Positions 21,501 through 30,179 of a DNA stretch of 64,000 bases are shown one piece after another. Source of the DNA: Pseudomonadota bacterium (lineage in GTDB: Bacteria > Pseudomonadota > Gammaproteobacteria > Steroidobacterales > JBCBZW01); assembly GCA_039193195.1 (NCBI GenBank), contig JBCCWS010000028.1, positions 1 to 64,000 on the forward strand, written 5' to 3'. Below the pieces are notes generated by a model. The model ran no database searches. It saw nothing but the letters and a program-made list of their open reading frames with translations, and had not been told where the DNA came from. Numbering within the stretch: position 1 is the stretch's first letter; every line of letters begins with the position of its first letter. The position numbers were made by a program, and so were the translations under genes.

Positions 21501-22370
21501 ATGCCCCAACCATCCTCACCGCACACCCCGGATACCCCGCCCGGGCGACCACTTCGCAAGGGAACCGTCCTGTCGGTCGTGTCCCTGACCGCCTGCGTAC
21601 TGCTCGGTGGCGTTGCCCGATCTGCCGATGGGACCGCGCCCACCATCCGTCTGTTCCCCACCACTGTGATCGAGGAGATTCGCCTGACCGGGCAGGTGGC
21701 CGAGCAAATGGAGTCCGGTCTGCAGGGGGTGATCGCTCGCCTTGAAGAGCAGGAGGCGCTCTACCGCGAGGCGCGCTGCGAAGGTGCTGAGGGAGATCCC
21801 GGTTGCAGCAGCATTGCCCGCAATCTCGGTGCTACATACCTAGAGATGCTGAACGTCATGGAGACCCAGCTGCCCGAGATGGAGCGAGCGGTGAATGCGA
21901 CGCGCGTGGGTCTGGAGAAGCGGCTGCGCAACGAGCTGGGGCACAAGCTATCACCCTGGGCCTTGCAGGACACGCTGCTCGGTGGTGACGGAAGCGGAAA
22001 GGCCAATACGCGTGAGCGTCCTGCCATGCGCGGCAAGTCCGGCCTGCGCCTCTCCCAGCGGTTCCGCCAATACCATCAACTCGTTGCGACCAGCACGGGT
22101 GGCGCCGACGACTCCCTCGCGGTGGTTGCTGCTGACATCTACCTGGACATGCAGGAGGCCAGCGTGCTGATCGCCCAGACCCGCCAGGAAATCGCGCGCG
22201 CGACCTTGCTGGAGCAGCTAAATCAGTCCTTCGGCCAGATCACTCCCGAGATGCAGCAGGTGGTCGGCGGCGTCAAGGCCATCCTGTTTGGCGAACAGGA
22301 CGCCGAGCCCATCCCCGGACCGCGCCCGAGCGGCGATGACGCCCCTTGGCGCAGTCCCCTCGAAATGTAG
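21501..22370 (+). CDS. Exported coiled-coil protein of unknown function
   Basis: A 289-residue protein I do not recognise. Positively charged N terminus, hydrophobic stretch (VLSVVSLTACVLLGGVA) and ARSADG give a probable signal peptide of about 42 residues. The mature part is largely helical, with a coiled coil from about 52 (IEEIRLTGQVAEQMESGL) to 150 and two cysteines (CEGAEGDPGC) that could form a disulphide. A second helix bundle (DIYLDMQEASVLIAQTRQEIA) is near 215-260. It starts the forward envelope cluster and is 19 bases before the lipoprotein gene. It may be a periplasmic scaffold, which is inference. Confidence 0.75.
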   Translation: MPQPSSPHTPDTPPGRPLRKGTVLSVVSLTACVLLGGVARSADGTAPTIRLFPTTVIEEIRLTGQVAEQMESGLQGVIARLEEQEALYREARCEGAEGDPGCSSIARNLGATYLEMLNVMETQLPEMERAVNATRVGLEKRLRNELGHKLSPWALQDTLLGGDGSGKANTRERPAMRGKSGLRLSQRFRQYHQLVATSTGGADDSLAVVAADIYLDMQEASVLIAQTRQEIARATLLEQLNQSFGQITPEMQQVVGGVKAILFGEQDAEPIPGPRPSGDDAPWRSPLEM

Positions 22371-22389
22371 TCTCCAGGAGATCAAACCG

Positions 22390-22947
22390 ATGAAATTCAA
22401 TAACCTATCTTCTCTCGGCCGCGCCGCCGTGCTACTCGGTGCCCTGGCCGCTCTTGGCGGCTGCATGACAACCCCCGAGCCCCAGGTCTGCAGCATGCCT
22501 GGTACCCGCGATTTGGACGCAGCAATCGCCTTTACGAAGGATCAACTGGATGCCGGCTGTGAGGCGAGCTTCGACGCCTATCTCGACCACCTGCTCGCCA
22601 TCGCTGAGGGTGATCCAGGCGCCGACAACAAGCGTCAGTTCAGCAGCTTCCTGATGTGGTCAGCAGACAACGGCGTGCTCAGTCGGCGCCAGGCCGAGCA
22701 GCTGTACAACCGCTACTTCAACATCAAGTTTGTATCGCTCTTAGGCGACTACAACAACTGCGCTTATACCTGCCCGCGCCAGGACGTGTTCATGGACGCC
22801 CTGCAGGATGAGCTGACCGACAAGGAGCGCGGCCTGCTCAAGGTTAGTGCTGACCGGGACTCGTACTACCGTGCAGATCGCCTGGCGCAGCAGGCGGAGC
22901 TGGTCATTGCGGCCACCTGTGAGGCCTGCGAGGGCGGCGCACCGTGA
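22390..22947 (+). CDS. Cysteine-rich lipoprotein of unknown function
   Basis: A 185-residue lipoprotein. AGGAGATC precedes the ATG at 22390, and the N terminus ends in the lipobox LGGC at residues 22-25, after which CMTT predicts lipidation and outer-membrane sorting (no Asp at +2). Six or more cysteines remain in the mature part (QVCSMPG, AGCEASF, NNCAYTCP, ATCEAC), suggesting disulphides. The middle is helical. I know no family for it. Its stop overlaps the next gene by GTGA, so the two are translationally coupled. Confidence 0.8.
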   Translation: MKFNNLSSLGRAAVLLGALAALGGCMTTPEPQVCSMPGTRDLDAAIAFTKDQLDAGCEASFDAYLDHLLAIAEGDPGADNKRQFSSFLMWSADNGVLSRRQAEQLYNRYFNIKFVSLLGDYNNCAYTCPRQDVFMDALQDELTDKERGLLKVSADRDSYYRADRLAQQAELVIAATCEACEGGAP

Positions 22948-23666
22948 ACGACGTCGGCCCCAGCGCCGCGCACGGCACCCCCTCAGGAGCGGAAGGCGCG
23001 GCGTTTCGCGACGGCCTGCTCTTCGGCGTGTTCGTGGCGCTGGTGAGCGCGGTGACCACCGCCTACCTGCTGCACGGCACCGCGTGGCTGACCCTGACCC
23101 GCGAGCCCGCGTCTGCGGTGCTGGGGTGGTTGGAGCGTAACCTCGGCAGCTCGGTGCCGGTCTTCGCCGCGCTGTCGCTCCTGTTCGCCGCCACTCTCGT
23201 GCGCCTTCGGCGCGTGCTCGCGGACCAGCCGCAAGATGTGGATGCAATTGCCCAGGCGGACCATCTGAGCGATCTGTGGACTAGCTTGTTCTTCGGCACC
23301 GGTGTGATCTGGACCGCCATCGGTATGCGCGGGGCGCTCCTGTTCGCCCTCGGAGACCCGGACGAGATCACCAGCGCCGGCGCCTTCGCGGTGCTGCAAC
23401 GAATGGTCGATGGGGGGATTCTCTTGGCCCTCTCCAGCACGATCGTCGGCGGCGTCGGCGGTTACCTGTTGCGCACGGCGAAGACGCTGCTGTTCGGGCA
23501 TGCCTTGAAGCAGGCCTACGCGGGCCAGGCGCGGCGCTCTGCGGAACACGTGCAAACGACCCTCGGCAACATCGAGCGCAAGCTGCGAGAGGGTAGGGCT
23601 TCGAGGGATCCTTCGCCTGCATCCGCGCCCGCTCGCCAAGCTCTGGCTGCGACGCAAGGGGAGTAG
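22944..23666 (+). CDS. MotA/TolQ/ExbB-like proton-channel membrane protein
   Basis: A 240-residue protein with about four membrane helices: near 26-46, 68-87, 111-135 and 150-177. The third (SLFFGTGVIWTAIGMRGALL) resembles the GTVWGI helix of ExbB/TolQ/MotA. The fourth (GGILLALSSTIVGGVGGYLL) resembles the ALxTTxxGL channel helix with its conserved Thr/Ser. A charged cytoplasmic tail follows. The GTG start overlaps the lipoprotein stop. The next gene encodes a MotB/ExbD-like partner, which strengthens the channel call. It is far from standard ExbB in sequence, so this is inference from helix patterns plus context. Confidence 0.6.
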   Translation: MNDVGPSAAHGTPSGAEGAAFRDGLLFGVFVALVSAVTTAYLLHGTAWLTLTREPASAVLGWLERNLGSSVPVFAALSLLFAATLVRLRRVLADQPQDVDAIAQADHLSDLWTSLFFGTGVIWTAIGMRGALLFALGDPDEITSAGAFAVLQRMVDGGILLALSSTIVGGVGGYLLRTAKTLLFGHALKQAYAGQARRSAEHVQTTLGNIERKLREGRASRDPSPASAPARQALAATQGE

Positions 23667-23672
23667 GCGACG

Positions 23673-24674
23673 ATGCTACCCTGGCATTCCTACCCTTACC
23701 CGACTTCAGGCACCGAAGGTGGTGGCGGGGCCGAGGACCTGCAGACAGATGTCATGCGGTTCATGGCGATGTTAGGGCTTTGCCTAGTGGCGATCTTCGC
23801 TCTGGTGCAGTCCTTGCCGGCGACGCCGGTGGCCAGCGAAACGCTGCCGGAGGCAGGGTCGCCTGCCGTAGGGAGCGCTCAGGTGGCGAGGCCTGCGCCG
23901 CTGCCGGTGACGCGACCTAAGCGCGAAGTGGAGCGTCCCTCGCAGGTGTCGACTCCCGAGCCGCCGCCTACGCCCGATGCGGCCGCGATCTCGCCACCTG
24001 TCGCGAAGCTCGCGGCGAATGGGCCGATGGCACCGCCCTCCGCCCCACCCCTTGCCCCGGCTGATGTGCTGACCGCGACGCCGCCTCCCCTCAAGGCTCC
24101 GCTCGTGCCGGCGCACTCCCCGGCGCCACCCGCCCGTCTGGCGCAACCATCTCCCGCGCAGTCACCGATCACAGAGGAGCTCACGCCACCGCCGAGTGTT
24201 GCGCCGTCGGCGCCTGCGCCTATGCCGACCGCGCCGTCGCCGCCGCCCAGTACGCCGGCGTTCACCTTGCGCTTTGTCGACGCCTCGGCGCTGCTCGCTC
24301 TGGTCCAGCGCGAGGCCGTGAGCCTGTTCGCCGTGGACGGGCGAGGCACCAGCAGGCTCTCTGCTGCACGGGGACGCTACGCCTTCGAAATCACCCCTGC
24401 CCCTTCGCAGATGCACGAGATGGACCCGGCCAGCGTGCCGGCCCAGGTGCGCTCAGCGTATGCCCGCACCCGCGGGCAAAGTGCCGACGCCGTGCGCCGG
24501 TGGGGGGTCGTGCTGCCGACGAGCACGCGCCGTGCGATCGACGAACTGCTGCGAGACCCGCGCGGTGGAGAGCTGCAGATCTCGGCGGACGGTCAGGTGC
24601 GCTTGGTACCCGATCGATCTGTCCGGCCTGTGCCCGCCTACCCATCTATTCCATTAGTAAGAGGAGCTTCCTGA
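23673..24674 (+). CDS. MotB/ExbD/TolR-like single-span protein with a Pro-rich linker
   Basis: A 333-residue bitopic protein. A short glycine-rich cytoplasmic tail leads to one helix at about 27-47 (TDVMRFMAMLGLCLVAIFAL). It begins with Asp26 in a D-x-M pattern like MotB (DFMTAMM) and ExbD (DVMLVLL), where that Asp carries the ions. A roughly 140-residue Pro/Ala-rich periplasmic linker follows, then a compact C-terminal domain from about 190 (TLRFVDASALLALVQREAVSL) of no named family. It is not an OmpA domain, so it differs from MotB. Six bases after the channel gene; its stop overlaps the next ATG (TGATG). Confidence 0.6.
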   Translation: MLPWHSYPYPTSGTEGGGGAEDLQTDVMRFMAMLGLCLVAIFALVQSLPATPVASETLPEAGSPAVGSAQVARPAPLPVTRPKREVERPSQVSTPEPPPTPDAAAISPPVAKLAANGPMAPPSAPPLAPADVLTATPPPLKAPLVPAHSPAPPARLAQPSPAQSPITEELTPPPSVAPSAPAPMPTAPSPPPSTPAFTLRFVDASALLALVQREAVSLFAVDGRGTSRLSAARGRYAFEITPAPSQMHEMDPASVPAQVRSAYARTRGQSADAVRRWGVVLPTSTRRAIDELLRDPRGGELQISADGQVRLVPDRSVRPVPAYPSIPLVRGAS

Positions 24675-26257
24675 TGGTCCGGTTCAGTCATCGACACAAA
24701 CGACCCTCACGATCCGCAGTTCGGGTCGCACCCAAGGGCAATCGCCTGCCCCTGGCCGTGGCGCTGGCACTAGGGCTCCTTCTGTTGCTAGGGGCGGCAT
24801 CGTCGGTACTTGCTCAAGAGCCGCGCACTGCGCTCATGACCTGGTTGACCCAGGATCTTGAGCCAACGCTAAGTCAGCGGTTCACGGAGCATCCACGTTT
24901 GCGCGGGCAGGCCGTGCAGGTGCTGGCCATGCGGGGAACGCAAGCCCGCGTTCGCAGCGATGCGCTCACCGAATCCATCGTCCGGCACCTGGGCAAGGCC
25001 CTCGCCGATCAGGCGGGTACGCGAGTCGTGCCAGTGGGAGCAGCGCCCTCGGCGCAGGCGTGTATGGCGCAGGCGGCGGTCGAGTATCGGATCGGCGTTG
25101 ACGTGCGTGCACTTGGTGGCGAAGTACAGGTGGATGTGCGTGTGTTCGATGTGACCGAGGGCACCTGGGTGGGGGGCTTCGGTGGCAGCTGGAGCGGTGC
25201 GCTCACCGCGCGAGAGCGCAACGCTCAGGAGCGCGAGATGGTGGCCGAGTCCGCCCGCGGCGCGCGCGAGTTACCCTTTCAGGTCGGTCAGGCAGATCTG
25301 GTCGCCAAGGATCTCGCCGCACAGATCGACTGCATCATGGCTGGCGCCCGCCAGCGTGAACCTCGAGGGGCAGCCCTTTACTTGGCACCGGCCGCGCAGC
25401 TCGATCCCCATCTGCAGAAGGCGGGCCTGCTCCTGATGCACGCGCTGCGTGCAAACCACGGCTGGCATCAGGTCACCACGATCGATGAGGCCGATCTTCT
25501 TCTGGAGTTGCACACGCAGGGGCTCGACCAGGATCTGAGCGTGTTTTGGGTGACCTTGAGTCGGGCGTCCGCGCAAGCGGCGCGCGAGCGCCGTGAGGGT
25601 CTCGTGGCGAGTGCTAGCACCTATGTGAACGGTGAGGACAGGCAAACCCGTGTCGCCGGGCGCACCGTTCGGTTGCCGAGGCCAGAGCCGGTTGCGACGC
25701 CTGCGCAAGCAGCACCGCCTGCAGTGGTCAGCGCGCCCACGGCGACGACCTTGTTGTCGCGCCCTCGCATGGTGATGCGACGCTCCCCGCGGGCTTGCGC
25801 CCAGGCCGCTGGCGCTAGGGCGGGGCGTGAGCTCAAGGAAACGTGTGCGGTCGTGGAGGTGGCGGTGACGCGACCCGCCACCGTCTTCTGGCTGTGGCAA
25901 CCGGCGAGTTGCCGACTGCAACCAAGTCCAGGGGGTGTCCTGCCGCGGGTGGTCAGTCGTCGAGCGAATGGTGCGGATACCCTGACTGCGCGGTTGCAGT
26001 CGACGGATGGCACTGCCTACGACAGCGTCTACGTCATCGCGGTTGACGCGCGCACGGATGCCGAGCGAGTGCGGGAGGTTCTCGAGCGCCATCCGGGAGG
26101 GAGTGGCTGCGATGCGCCGCAATGGGAACGCGACTTACGGCGCTGGGCCTTGGCCCTGGAATCCACCCTGCTGCGCCTTGGTGATGGAGCGGACTGGCAG
26201 GCGGTGCGCGCGCCGCGCCTGCCTACGCGGATGGTAAGTTCGGAGGCGCAGAGATGA
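24674..26257 (+). CDS. Large exported protein with two unassigned domains
   Basis: A 527-residue protein. GAGGAG precedes the ATG at 24674, which gives a basic N terminus and a signal peptide (LALGLLLLLGAASSVLAQ). The first domain contains DALTESIVRHLGKALADQAG and VQVDVRVFDVTEGTWVGGF, a pattern seen in CsgG-, LpoB- and FlgO-like periplasmic proteins. A second, Cys-containing beta domain lies from about 400 (KETCAVVEVAVTRPATVFWL). I cannot assign a family. It is coupled to both neighbours by overlapping starts, so it is almost certainly part of the same system. Confidence 0.7.
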   Translation: MVRFSHRHKRPSRSAVRVAPKGNRLPLAVALALGLLLLLGAASSVLAQEPRTALMTWLTQDLEPTLSQRFTEHPRLRGQAVQVLAMRGTQARVRSDALTESIVRHLGKALADQAGTRVVPVGAAPSAQACMAQAAVEYRIGVDVRALGGEVQVDVRVFDVTEGTWVGGFGGSWSGALTARERNAQEREMVAESARGARELPFQVGQADLVAKDLAAQIDCIMAGARQREPRGAALYLAPAAQLDPHLQKAGLLLMHALRANHGWHQVTTIDEADLLLELHTQGLDQDLSVFWVTLSRASAQAARERREGLVASASTYVNGEDRQTRVAGRTVRLPRPEPVATPAQAAPPAVVSAPTATTLLSRPRMVMRRSPRACAQAAGARAGRELKETCAVVEVAVTRPATVFWLWQPASCRLQPSPGGVLPRVVSRRANGADTLTARLQSTDGTAYDSVYVIAVDARTDAERVREVLERHPGGSGCDAPQWERDLRRWALALESTLLRLGDGADWQAVRAPRLPTRMVSSEAQR

Positions 26258-27033
26258 CAGTTCCAAGCCATACGGGCCGCTTCTGGCGTGGCGCAGGCGT
26301 CGGCGTAGTCTTGGGTCTGACGGCCGTCGTCGGTCTTGGCTGGTGGCTTGCTAGCGAACCGCAGACCGGTGGGCCGCCACCCGCGGTCACCCCCTTGGCG
26401 CCATCGCCCCCCGCCTCGCCGACGCCGATGCCAAGCTTCGCTCCGCCGGTCGAACGGCTGGCCGACCAGGACGCGCAGCCACCAGCAGCGTCGCAAGAGG
26501 CGGTCGCGATCGAACAGATGGCGGCCAGCGCGGCGGCGATGAGCCGAAGCGATGTCGTCGAAGCGCAAGAGCTCTCTGAAGAGGCGGTGGCGAGAGAGAC
26601 GCCATCGGTCGTCGACGCCGCAGATAGGCGAGCGCTCGAAGTGGCTGAGGAACCCATCGAGCGGGATGCCCTACGTCTTCGTGATCGGTTCGACTCCTTG
26701 AGTGACGCGCTGCTTACGGAGGAGCAATCGCAAGTGACAGCAATATTGATTGATCCGATAGGTGGCGATCTTCTCGCGAGCGCGGAGGCATTGAGCGACC
26801 CGCCGCCTTCCTCAGGGCAGTGGATCGATGTCTGGCAGCCCTTCACCAGTCCGGTCTCAGCGCGAGGTTTCGCCGATCGTTTAGAGTTGTTGACGGGTTT
26901 TACCTATCGTGTGCAGCGTCGCCCTGGCGATGGGTTGCATCAGGTAGCGGTGCTGCCGGTGCCTGGCTATGCGCCCGAACAGATGTTGCGGCAAATCGCC
27001 GATCGCAGCGGCCTGGCGATGGCGTCGCCGTGA
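26254..27033 (+). CDS. Membrane-anchored protein with a SPOR-like C terminus
   Basis: A 259-residue bitopic protein. One N-terminal helix (VGVVLGLTAVVGLGWWLA) is followed by a Pro/Ala-rich stretch and an acidic helical region. The C-terminal 75 residues (WIDVWQPFTSPVSARGFADRL, then YRVQRRPGDGLHQVAVLPV) have the size and strand-helix pattern of a SPOR domain, which binds denuded peptidoglycan in division proteins such as FtsN. Similarity is weak, so SPOR is inference. The start overlaps the previous stop (ATGA), and the next gene starts at TGATG. Confidence 0.6.
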   Translation: MTVPSHTGRFWRGAGVGVVLGLTAVVGLGWWLASEPQTGGPPPAVTPLAPSPPASPTPMPSFAPPVERLADQDAQPPAASQEAVAIEQMAASAAAMSRSDVVEAQELSEEAVARETPSVVDAADRRALEVAEEPIERDALRLRDRFDSLSDALLTEEQSQVTAILIDPIGGDLLASAEALSDPPPSSGQWIDVWQPFTSPVSARGFADRLELLTGFTYRVQRRPGDGLHQVAVLPVPGYAPEQMLRQIADRSGLAMASP

Positions 27034-27851
27034 TGCATCCACCGACCGCGCTCGCACGTGCCCTTGGCGCGTTTACGTCCCTAGCCGGGATGTTGCTGAT
27101 GGCATCGGCTCACGCGCTTACCTCGGATCAGGCCTGGCAGCAGTTTTTGGCAGACGAGACGCGACATCTGCCCGCCTCTGGTTACCCTTACCAGCATTGC
27201 TTCGCCGAGTCGGCCCGACGCTACGACTTACCCGAGGCTCTGCTGCTGGCTGTAGGTCGCGGTGAGAGCGCCCTGGATCCTCTCGCAAGATCCCATGCCA
27301 ACGCCTATGGGCTGATGCAGATTCAGTGGCCGGGGACAGCCAAGCACCTTGGGATCCACAGCGTACGCACGCTGCTCAACCCATGCCGCAACGTGGATGC
27401 GGGGGCGCGTTACTTAAGGGAACTTCTAGGCCGCTACGGAAGCTTGGAGCGGGCACTGGCCGCCTACAACGTGGGTCCAGGTCGAGTGTCTGAGCGAGCT
27501 GACGTGCCCCTTCCTGGTGCCGGTCATCGCTACAGCCAGTACATCTACCGGCAGCTGGCAAAGGGTGGAGACCGCGCTTCGCCGCCGCCGTTGAAGGCCG
27601 GGAAGGCGCCGGCATCGCCAACCGCGCCTACGGCGCGGGCCTATCCGCAAACCCACCATCTGGTTGTGTTCGATAGTCCTGTCCGTGCGCATTCACTCGC
27701 CCATGCCCTGTCGCGACGCTATCCACAGCTGGATGTTTCCGCGCAACGTCTCGATGCTCGTAACTTCGCCGTCACGGTGGTGTTGGCGAGTGAGGCGACC
27801 TCGCGCGCTAGCCGCGAGGCCCTGCGCCGTGCGGGCTTCGAGTTGCCTTGA
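27033..27851 (+). CDS. SLT-family lytic transglycosylase with a SPOR-like tail
   Basis: A 272-residue exported enzyme that cleaves peptidoglycan glycan strands. The signal peptide ends at ASAHA. The SLT domain has Glu78 as catalytic acid (AVGRGESALDPLA) followed by ANAYGLMQIQWPGTA, the VDAGARYLRELL helix and LAAYNVGPGRV. After a Pro/Ala linker the last 70 residues (HHLVVFDSPVRAHSLAHAL, then NFAVTVVLAS) have a SPOR-like pattern, echoing the neighbour upstream. I chose ATG 27033, which overlaps the upstream stop. It is the clearest biochemical clue in this cluster: the cluster works on the cell wall. Confidence 0.88.
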   Translation: MHPPTALARALGAFTSLAGMLLMASAHALTSDQAWQQFLADETRHLPASGYPYQHCFAESARRYDLPEALLLAVGRGESALDPLARSHANAYGLMQIQWPGTAKHLGIHSVRTLLNPCRNVDAGARYLRELLGRYGSLERALAAYNVGPGRVSERADVPLPGAGHRYSQYIYRQLAKGGDRASPPPLKAGKAPASPTAPTARAYPQTHHLVVFDSPVRAHSLAHALSRRYPQLDVSAQRLDARNFAVTVVLASEATSRASREALRRAGFELP

Positions 27852-27879
27852 GCAGATCGATCTACGGAGGACCACGTCC

Positions 27880-28362
27880 ATGCTTGCGCTTAGCCACCGC
27901 CACTCTCTCCCCCTAGCGTTGACGATGGTGTTCGCGGTGCTGCTGGGGGCACCCGCGAGCGCGGACAATCGGTACCGCGTGGGTGAACGCTACGATCCCC
28001 CGCCGCGCGTGTACTACGACTACGCTCCCGTAGTCGACGTCAGGGCGCTGCGCGAGCAAGTGCCGGTGCCCGCCGCTTGCTTGCCTTCGACGCAAGCCGA
28101 TGAGGCGACCTTACCGAACCTAGGGGTCGTGCGAGAGTTCGCGGCGTCGATTGCGAGCGCCATCGTGCAGGAAGCAGAGGCTCAGGCAGACGCGCGCGAG
28201 CAGGCGCGTGAGCGCCGTCACAGATGTGAGCGCGAGCGTGTGGAGCCGCGGATCACCGCCTACGAGGTGACGTACCGCTATCGGGGCGAGCAGTACCGCC
28301 GGGTGATGACGCGCGACCCGGGCGACGAGGTGCGCGTGCGCGTGGAAGTGCGCACGCACTAA
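27880..28362 (+). CDS. Exported protein with a YcfJ-like C terminus
   Basis: A 160-residue exported protein. ACGGAGG precedes the ATG at 27880; signal peptide to about residue 29 (LLGAPASA). The end, RITAYEVTYRYRGEQYRRVM followed by TRDPGDEVRVRV, closely resembles the C terminus of YcfJ-family proteins (YDVTYRYxG, RDPG). The glycine-zipper segment those proteins carry is missing here and replaced by a charged helix with many Glu and Arg (EAEAQADAREQARERR). It is the last gene of the forward cluster, 28 bases after the transglycosylase, and converges on pomB three bases away. Confidence 0.75.
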   Translation: MLALSHRHSLPLALTMVFAVLLGAPASADNRYRVGERYDPPPRVYYDYAPVVDVRALREQVPVPAACLPSTQADEATLPNLGVVREFAASIASAIVQEAEAQADAREQARERRHRCERERVEPRITAYEVTYRYRGEQYRRVMTRDPGDEVRVRVEVRTH

Positions 28363-29423: not shown

Positions 29424-30179
29424 CTAGTCCTTGCTGCCGCGCTGCTTTACGGGCAGGTAGTTCTCGAGCATGCCCTCGATGACGCGCGGGTTTTGGCCAT
29501 CCTGAATGGCGATTAGCGCGTCGATGATGAGGGACTTCGAGTGCTTCTCTTCCTTCGAGCGCAGGATGAGCTTGTCGGCGATGGGGAAGGCCACCACGTT
29601 GGCGAGCACGGCCCCGTACAGGGTGGTGAGCAGGGCGACGGCCATGGCGGGACCGATTTGCTTCGGGTCGTCCATGTTGGAGAGCATCTGCACCAGGCCG
29701 ATTAGGGTGCCGATCATGCCCATGGCGGGGGCGACGTCGCCGATGGCCTTGAACACGGCTTGCCCTTGGGAGTGGCGATCCACCGTGAGGGCAAGGTCCT
29801 TATTGAGGAGCGTCTTCACCGTCGCAGCGTCGTGGCCGTCGACCAGGTAGCCGATTCCCTTCTTCATGAAGTCGTCGGGAATCTCAGCGCTCTCCAGTGC
29901 CAGCAGACCACCCTGACGCGACATCTGGGCCAGCTCCACGGCCTTGTCGACGAGTGCTCTGGGCTCGCTGACCTTCACCATGATCGCCTTCATCGCCACG
30001 CCAGCGGCGGCGAGGAATTGGCCGATGGTGAACTTCGACAGCGCCACCATCAACGTGCCGCCGAATACGACCAGGATGGAAGGTGGGTTAATAAAGACGA
30101 GTGCGGAGCCGCCCAGCATGACGGCGAGTGCCATGACTGCAAAAGCCCCGACGAAGCCTACTATGGTGGCGAGATCCAA
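29424..30179 (-). CDS. pomA: Flagellar stator protein, PomA/MotA type
   Basis: A 251-residue protein with four membrane helices: two near the N terminus (LATIVGFVGAFAVMALAVML, SILVVFGGTLMVAL) and two after a cytoplasmic loop (APAMGMIGTLIGLVQML, PAMAVALLTTLYGAVLANVVAFPIA). The last two line the ion channel, and the loop carries the charged residues that act on FliG. The length and the VAPAMGMIGTLIG segment fit PomA. The start is TTG with GGGGGA five bases upstream. A sigma-28-like site lies 40 bases further upstream. Confidence 0.93.
   Translation of the reverse strand: MDLATIVGFVGAFAVMALAVMLGGSALVFINPPSILVVFGGTLMVALSKFTIGQFLAAAGVAMKAIMVKVSEPRALVDKAVELAQMSRQGGLLALESAEIPDDFMKKGIGYLVDGHDAATVKTLLNKDLALTVDRHSQGQAVFKAIGDVAPAMGMIGTLIGLVQMLSNMDDPKQIGPAMAVALLTTLYGAVLANVVAFPIADKLILRSKEEKHSKSLIIDALIAIQDGQNPRVIEGMLENYLPVKQRGSKD

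Follow-up and report, generated by a model that had tools for sequence, protein, structure and literature searches.

A stretch of 64,000 nt from contig JBCCWS010000028.1 of a Pseudomonadota bacterium (here, the window) carries, at positions 21501 to 28362 of the forward strand, an operon of eight genes (here, P1 to P8) whose products are all exported or membrane proteins. This is a genuine, conserved gene set. From its residues and domains we infer its function, and we consider it rather probable that the operon encodes a trans-envelope machine that is powered by an ExbB/TolQ-type ion motor and coupled to the cell wall. A preliminary description of the region had claimed eight same-strand, tightly packed envelope genes that would form an undescribed ion-driven cell-wall system. 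The open reading frames (ORFs) lie at, or very close to, the coordinates claimed, and the proposal itself is supported, "ion-driven" and "cell-wall" both being readings of residues and domains. The eight genes are as follows.

P1, 21501-22370, forward strand: exported, probably helical periplasmic protein of 289 aa; best-conserved member
P2, 22390-22947, forward strand: Cys-rich lipoprotein of 185 aa
P3, 22944-23666, forward strand: putative diverged ExbB/TolQ/MotA-type membrane channel subunit of 240 aa, with a GTG start
P4, 23673-24674, forward strand: putative motor B-type subunit with an N-terminal membrane helix, a spacer, and a C-terminal alpha/beta domain
P5, 24674-26257, forward strand: periplasmic protein or lipoprotein of 527 aa with FlgO-type and DUF4384-type domains
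P6, 26254-27033, forward strand: N-terminal membrane helix, spacer, and SPOR-like C-terminal domain
P7, 27030-27851, forward strand: SLT lytic transglycosylase with a SPOR-like tail, starting at GTG 27030 or ATG 27033
P8, 27880-28362, forward strand: small exported protein, accessory

Conservation of the operon

The eight forward ORFs are packed between fimV/SRPBCC and convergent motB-motA genes, with gaps from P1 to P8 of +19, -4, +6, -1, -4, -4 (or -1), and +28 nt. For P2, the ATG at 22390 was taken as the start (the listed ORF runs from 22288), because the lipoprotein signal fits this position. In a genome of the same genus, G008, the products of P1 to P5 and P7 are 70 to 93% identical to those of the window where aligned (P6 and P8 were outside the query set); six of the eight products are thus conserved there, and the ORFs are not chance ones. 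With the same genus excluded, identity to the window protein is 49 to 59% for P1, 29 to 56% for P2, and 38 to 49% for P3 in alignments of chosen members (27 to 31 for each protein). A promoter scan, which was not informative, found none.

Genomes were scanned with P3 alone, the best 80 of 114 relatives were kept as named loci, and the other window proteins were then searched in the resulting loci. Synteny was counted only in loci with enough sequence for the gene in question. The 22 loci L011 to L032 were excluded from the synteny count and from the profile sets; at least one of them, L011, agrees in gene offsets and scores with a named locus, L033. After removal of length outliers and X-containing sequences, the profile sets kept 72 of 78 sequences for P1, 80 of 81 for P2, 81 of 82 for P3, 72 of 78 for P4, 68 of 73 for P5, 46 of 54 for P6, 64 of 65 for P7, and 12 of 13 for P8.

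The gene order is shared across the 80 named loci, which comprise Gammaproteobacteria and Desulfobacterales. Where there was room for the gene, P4 was found in all 72 loci, P2 in all 77 (on the expected strand and side of P3 in 76), P1 in 69 of 70, P5 in 64 of 66, P7 in 58 of 60, and P6 in 48 of 60; median gaps across the loci are 23, 6, -4, -4, 9, -4, and -1 nt. The neighborhood search suggested with the preliminary description thus finds homologs that are not scattered but keep order, strand, and tight spacing in P3-selected loci. Because the flanking genes differ by lineage (see below), P1 to P5 and P7 are regarded as the core; P8 is only occasional (11 of the 59 loci with room). The divergence of the six core proteins is correlated (r of 0.80 to 0.96 over 52 loci), as expected of co-inherited genes, although shared ancestry alone can give this result.

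Titles of the records that hold relatives include Woeseiaceae, Ectothiorhodospiraceae, Thiogranum, Motiliproteus, Marinobacterium, tubeworm symbionts, Desulfobacterales, and the Olavius symbiont "Delta 1". All 80 named loci come from records titled metagenome-assembled genomes or symbionts, and the system would therefore have been easy to overlook. It is also uncommon: P3 is present in 24 of 147 genomes of the window's order, and P1 in 6 of 369 class-sample and 1 of 398 phylum-sample genomes, the window's own genome being included in each count. Some loci depart from the common form. L100 (Marinobacterium) has a rearranged form, in which P1 was not found and a diverged P2-like gene follows P3, and the gammaproteobacterial genome G486 has two P1 copies on separate contigs (L122 and L125). 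On L103, a 3.5-kb contig titled Desulfobacterales and too short to reveal its flanks, P2 scores 192 bits, compared with 110 to 117 bits in L088, L093, L097, and L099; this gammaproteobacterial-like score suggests transfer or mis-binning.

The motor-type pair P3 and P4

We compared 81 P3 sequences with 33 ExbB/TolQ-type sequences (from 33 of 35 loci tried, the window's MotA being excluded) by hhalign and obtained a colinear match that spans 146 columns, at P = 7.3e-4. Reversing one side raises P to 0.16 to 0.18, and other operon proteins give 0.03 to 0.6; with both sides reversed, P is 0.0012, as expected of a true match. A smaller, earlier ExbB set matches the same region (44 columns, P = 0.0041). 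T124 and T166 of P3 are invariant (81/81), and in both hhalign alignments they align to two threonines of the TolQ-like sequence L001, which we take to be T145 and T178 of Escherichia coli TolQ. PMC12583513 describes these two TolQ residues and TolR D23 as the proton path.

The AlphaFold model of P3 (pLDDT 89) has about four membrane-length helices. It shows an extra N-terminal helix, and the part between residues about 57 and about 214 superposes on the whole of TolQ. Of the 14 rows that VIA-align displayed with Z of at least 8, 12 are ExbB, TolQ, or ZorA (Z 8.0 to 8.8), and the superpositions on TolQ and ExbB have an rmsd of 4.6 to 5.8 over 142 to 163 residues. By the profile comparison, P3 combines a homologous membrane-helix core with two pore threonines, which places it, at modest strength, in the motor superfamily. 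The name "MotA/ExbB-like" given to it earlier is borne out by the profile comparison and less firmly by fold, while the protein is invisible to Pfam: PF01618, the MotA_ExbB model, misses P3 in the window genome and in 30 of 30 alignment members (E ≤ 0.1).

P4 adjoins P3 on its 3' side in 72 of 72 loci (median gap, -4 nt). It has a single hydrophobic segment in 71 of 72 sequences, and L23, D26, M28, R29, F30, and C37 are invariant (72/72). D26 lies in the N-terminal membrane helix, the only one in P4, and it is for this location, rather than from an alignment, that we equate it with TolR D23. A single N-terminal helix, a conserved Asp, and a gene beside that of the A subunit are what is looked for in a B subunit, and P4 has all three. 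The spacer that follows is 45 to 182 aa long and, by composition, Pro-rich in 53 of 72 sequences and helical-looking in 8; TolA domain II varies in a similar way, according to PMC12204202.

The C-terminal alpha/beta domain of P4 (residues about 196 to 314) is modeled with a pLDDT of about 95 over residues 201 to 290. Searches with a query that included the disordered spacer gave no convincing PDB fold for it (best Foldseek E, 0.49; best VIA-align Z, 3.9), and comparison with SPOR, FlgO, ExbD, the two P5 domains, and the P6 and P7 tails gave P of at least 0.023. Of the "MotB/ExbD-like" label, then, gene position, topology, and the invariant membrane Asp stand, and a domain match is missing. P3 and P4 are best read as a far-diverged motor of the ExbB/TolQ-TolR type.

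The cell-wall and envelope partners

P7 is the only one of the eight proteins that passes a Pfam cut-off. It is clearly the SLT enzyme named in the preliminary description: it matches PF01464 at E = 2.1e-25, and E79 and an A-Y-N motif, which we take to be the catalytic residues of SLT lytic transglycosylases, are present in 64 of 64 sequences. The C-terminal domains of P6 and P7 are homologous to each other (P = 2.1e-7; reversed, 0.43). Both tails compare with SPOR at P = 4.9e-4, P6 over 18 columns only (reversed, 0.23) and P7 over 65 columns (reversed, 0.08); PF05036, the Pfam SPOR model, matches neither protein in the window's own genome at E ≤ 10. "SPOR-like" is therefore kept here for two mutually homologous tails, with a marginal relation to SPOR that the Pfam model misses. 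P6 has one membrane segment in 44 of 46 sequences.

P5, which had been called a two-domain periplasmic protein, is indeed one, with a FlgO-like and a DUF4384-type domain. Its N-domain matches a FlgO-domain profile (from 19 of 25 loci) over 101 columns (P = 1.5e-4; reversed, 0.41). The Pfam DUF4384 model matches 4 of 27 P5 relatives (best E, 6.9e-11) and does not match the window's P5. A lipobox pattern is present in 22 of 68 P5 sequences. An identification of P5 with LpoB was rejected, PF13036 giving one sub-cut-off match in 39 genomes, outside this operon.

The description of P2 as a Cys-rich lipoprotein holds: Cys25 is present in 80 of 80 sequences, five further Cys residues in 79 to 80 of 80, and a simple lipobox pattern in 76 of 80. 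P1 has the highest mean pairwise identity of the set (66% over 52 loci), with 49 to 93% identity to the window protein in its 29-row alignment and C93 and C102 present in 72 of 72 sequences. One signal-like segment in 58 of 72 sequences makes P1 compatible with the exported coiled coil proposed earlier. No Pfam family matches P1 above cut-off, and PDB sequence profiles give no credible relative for P1 to P5, the best being an Abl interactor against P1 (E, 0.014). A link of P1 to CATRA-C and caspases, seen in 3 of 29 members at E of 0.014 or worse, was taken as chance despite the caspase neighbors in Desulfobacterales-type loci. For P8, the label "YcfJ-like" is weak: the match scores 17.4 bits, and the cut-off is 99.

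Evidence against a wall-coupled motor

Several results weigh against the reading of the operon as a wall-coupled ion motor. For the motor pair, (i) sequence profiles of Pfam, NCBIfam, and PDB give no motor-family link for P3 or P4; (ii) the hhalign probability of the P3-ExbB/TolQ match is only 26%, and P3 has a leucine, L161, at the position that aligns with E173, an acidic residue of the TolQ channel mouth; (iii) in the VIA-align search a designed helical protein shares the top rank (Z 8.8), Z of 8 to 9 lies under the helical-bundle baseline, and Foldseek matches the P3 model best to an unrelated BAR domain (E, 0.067), with TolQ as the highest-ranking motor protein (E, 0.17); (iv) hydropathy predicts four membrane segments in 12 of the 81 P3 sequences, three in 16, two in 37, and one in 16; and (v) P4 matches a four-sequence ExbD set over only 13 columns, off the membrane helix (P = 0.14), and its end domain compares with the same set at P = 0.063.

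For the coupling to the wall, L086 and L101 have P1 to P4 without P5 to P7 (L101 has masked bases), and in three Desulfobacterales-type loci (L093, L097, and L099, from the Olavius Delta 1 symbiont and two Desulfobacterales) the distance between P5 and P7 is too small for P6. These five are among the twelve loci in which P6 was undetected; in L055, L057, L085, and L104 a similar-looking gene occupies the P6 slot, which is unsettled in L082, L094, and L095. Glycan cutting may be a side function. In L086, P4 is followed by housekeeping-type genes resembling rpsA and an IHF-type gene, so that this locus is perhaps a remnant.

Comparison with known systems

The preliminary description had held the operon to be none of Tol-Pal, Ton, Mot, or Agl-Glt, and we found no database match to a known system; Pfam, NCBIfam, and PADLOC assign none to any of the eight proteins. 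Among the closest systems, Tol-Pal likewise joins an ExbB/TolQ-type and TolR-type pair to periplasmic and lipoprotein partners for likely force transfer to the envelope, and its TolA domain II is resembled by the Pro-rich or helical-looking P4 spacer. However, the eight proteins contain no Tol or Pal/OmpA domain (Pfam, E ≤ 1), P4 carries in one chain the motor helix, a long spacer, and an end domain that has no match, and the operon includes an SLT enzyme and SPOR-like domains. Moreover, the same genome has a separate PF01618/PF02472 pair on contig C16. Nine PF01618 matches in all, motA included (window positions 29424-30179 and contigs C3, C8, C9, C11, C12, C16, and C60), indicate that this genome has many ExbB/TolQ/MotA-type systems besides the operon.

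Ton shares with the operon a motor pair and a membrane-anchored protein with a spacer (here, P6), whereas a TonB C-terminal domain is absent at E ≤ 1 (Pfam and NCBIfam) and the end of P6 is SPOR-like. MotAB has similar motor residues and likewise about four membrane-length helices; in contrast, no large cytoplasmic domain is apparent in the P3 model, P4 has no OmpA-type domain, and the operon occurs in genomes without a FliG match. The P3 model resembles ZorA of Zorya (Z 8.5 with an rmsd of 15.3 over 163 residues; Z 8.0 with an rmsd of 4.7 over 137 residues), but PADLOC gives no match for any of the eight operon proteins at E ≤ 1, and the partners are all envelope proteins; a defense system was accordingly rejected. 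Agl-Glt is represented only by a 21-bit GltJ match (cut-off, 450) to P6 residues 13 to 124, that is, the membrane helix and spacer. The layout of P6 (membrane helix, spacer, SPOR-like end) is also that of FtsN/DamX-type and TonB-like proteins; unlike the former, P6 has a marginal SPOR relation and is tied to a motor operon. We file the operon under the ExbB/TolQ kind of motor, apart from Tol, Ton, Mot, Zorya, and Agl-Glt.

Among the matches listed in open full-text PMC literature, a scope that leaves most subscription papers and preprints outside, there is no description of such an operon. The word "transglycosylase" is absent from the main texts of PMC12505986, PMC12204202, and PMC9389320.

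Flanking genes and alternative functions

Outside P1 to P8, no gene is constant beside the block, and the flanks differ between lineages. In 25 loci the upstream flank has a feoB gene, and in 24 the downstream flank has a nucleoside-kinase-like gene; we read both names from the sequence. Eight gammaproteobacterial-type loci (L055, L057, L077, L085, L090, L092, L094, and L095) carry a PhoPQ-like response regulator that scores at least about 290 bits with the L092 regulator as query. A kinase match accompanies it in seven of these loci and a glycine-zipper gene in every one, upstream of the block in some loci and downstream in others. The regulator and the glycine-zipper gene near the block suggest envelope-stress control. 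Two genes lie upstream of the block in four of four Desulfobacterales-type loci (L088, L093, L097, and L099); they are not claimed as a sigma/anti-sigma pair, Pfam giving nothing at 1e-3. In three of these four loci (L093, L097, and L099; the contig of the fourth ends early), P7 is followed by a caspase (Peptidase_C14)-DUF4384 gene, an OmpA-TPR gene, and further caspase genes. DUF4384 thus occurs in these caspases and in some P5 relatives, and the domain may mark one pathway.

The absence of a constant neighbor bears on the possibility that the operon encodes an energized assembly or secretion apparatus, in which P3 and P4 would drive the export of a surface structure or insertion into the outer membrane, P5 (with its FlgO-type fold) and P2 would form an outer-membrane station, and P7 would merely clear a path through the wall. 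SLT enzymes often accompany envelope-spanning apparatus, the NCBIfam matches of P7, all below cut-off, include flagellar assembly and type III secretion transglycosylases, and the P5 N-domain is FlgO-like. An apparatus of this kind is nevertheless unlikely in our view, as no gene outside P1 to P8 was found to be constant beside the block, secretins, pilins, and secretion ATPases not having been searched by name.

The regulators and caspases could instead be taken as the recipients of a signal, P3 and P4 acting as a sensor that reports the state of the wall or outer membrane to them. This relay would account for the response regulators, closely related to one another, that eight loci carry at most about 7 kb from P3, and for DUF4384 in the caspases of Desulfobacterales-type loci as well as in P5 of some relatives. 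It would have no need, however, of the invariant motor-type Thr and Asp residues, and a regulator at this strength is present in only 8 of 80 loci, so that we consider it improbable.

A flagellar accessory set (FlgO/FlgT/MotX-like) is very improbable: the operon adjoins motB/motA and flagellar genes in the window and G008, its P5 N-domain is FlgO-like, and FliG is somewhat commoner in carriers within the window's order (16 of 24) than in non-carriers (54 of 123), but FliG has no match in 8 of the 24 carrier genomes, three of which are 99 to 100% complete, and motA/motB are unmatched in all 80 named loci, 37 of which hold at least 8 kb upstream and at least 10 kb downstream of P3. The setting between fimV and the stator genes, to which the preliminary description had drawn attention, was seen only in the window's genus: fimV, mot, and flg genes were seen beside the block only in the window and G008 and therefore give no functional hint. 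(In the window, the names fimV, SRPBCC, motB, and flg are read from translations, and motA is also matched by PF01618.)

A putative wall-coupled machine

As a wall-coupled ion motor, the operon would work as follows. P3 would form an inner-membrane ring around the membrane helices of P4, and ions passing the T124/T166 ring of P3 and D26 of P4 would move P4, whose arm would reach the periplasmic P1, the lipoprotein P2, and P5. Because it has its own long spacer and end domain, P4 would cover the work of TolR and TolA (or ExbD and TonB) together. P4, and perhaps P6 too, would be a periplasm-spanning arm that is moved or held, and P6 and the transglycosylase P7 would couple the motion to the cell wall, so that glycan cutting would be placed or licensed by the energized state of the membrane. 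What the sequences show is the conserved operon, the intact SLT motif of P7, the invariant motor-type residues, and the layout of the domains. The flow of ions and which ion it is, a 5:2 assembly, the transfer of force, the sequence of events, an output in the form of glycan cutting, and a physiological role, such as one in remodeling of the envelope, are all putative here.

Most likely, the operon represents a new TolQR-family system for remodeling of the wall or outer membrane. Tentatively, it can be seen as an ion machine that mechanically controls peptidoglycan cutting, in which a periplasm-spanning B subunit might gate a SPOR-guided transglycosylase together with lipoproteins in Gammaproteobacteria and Desulfobacterales and be joined by caspases in the latter. 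To our knowledge, few families of ion motors act across the Gram-negative envelope (Ton, Tol, Mot, Gld, Agl, and Zorya). An additional motor, one that escapes the standard Pfam model and is linked to a wall-cutting enzyme, would extend the range of processes powered by ion gradients, and it would make mechanically driven or licensed glycan cleavage directly testable.

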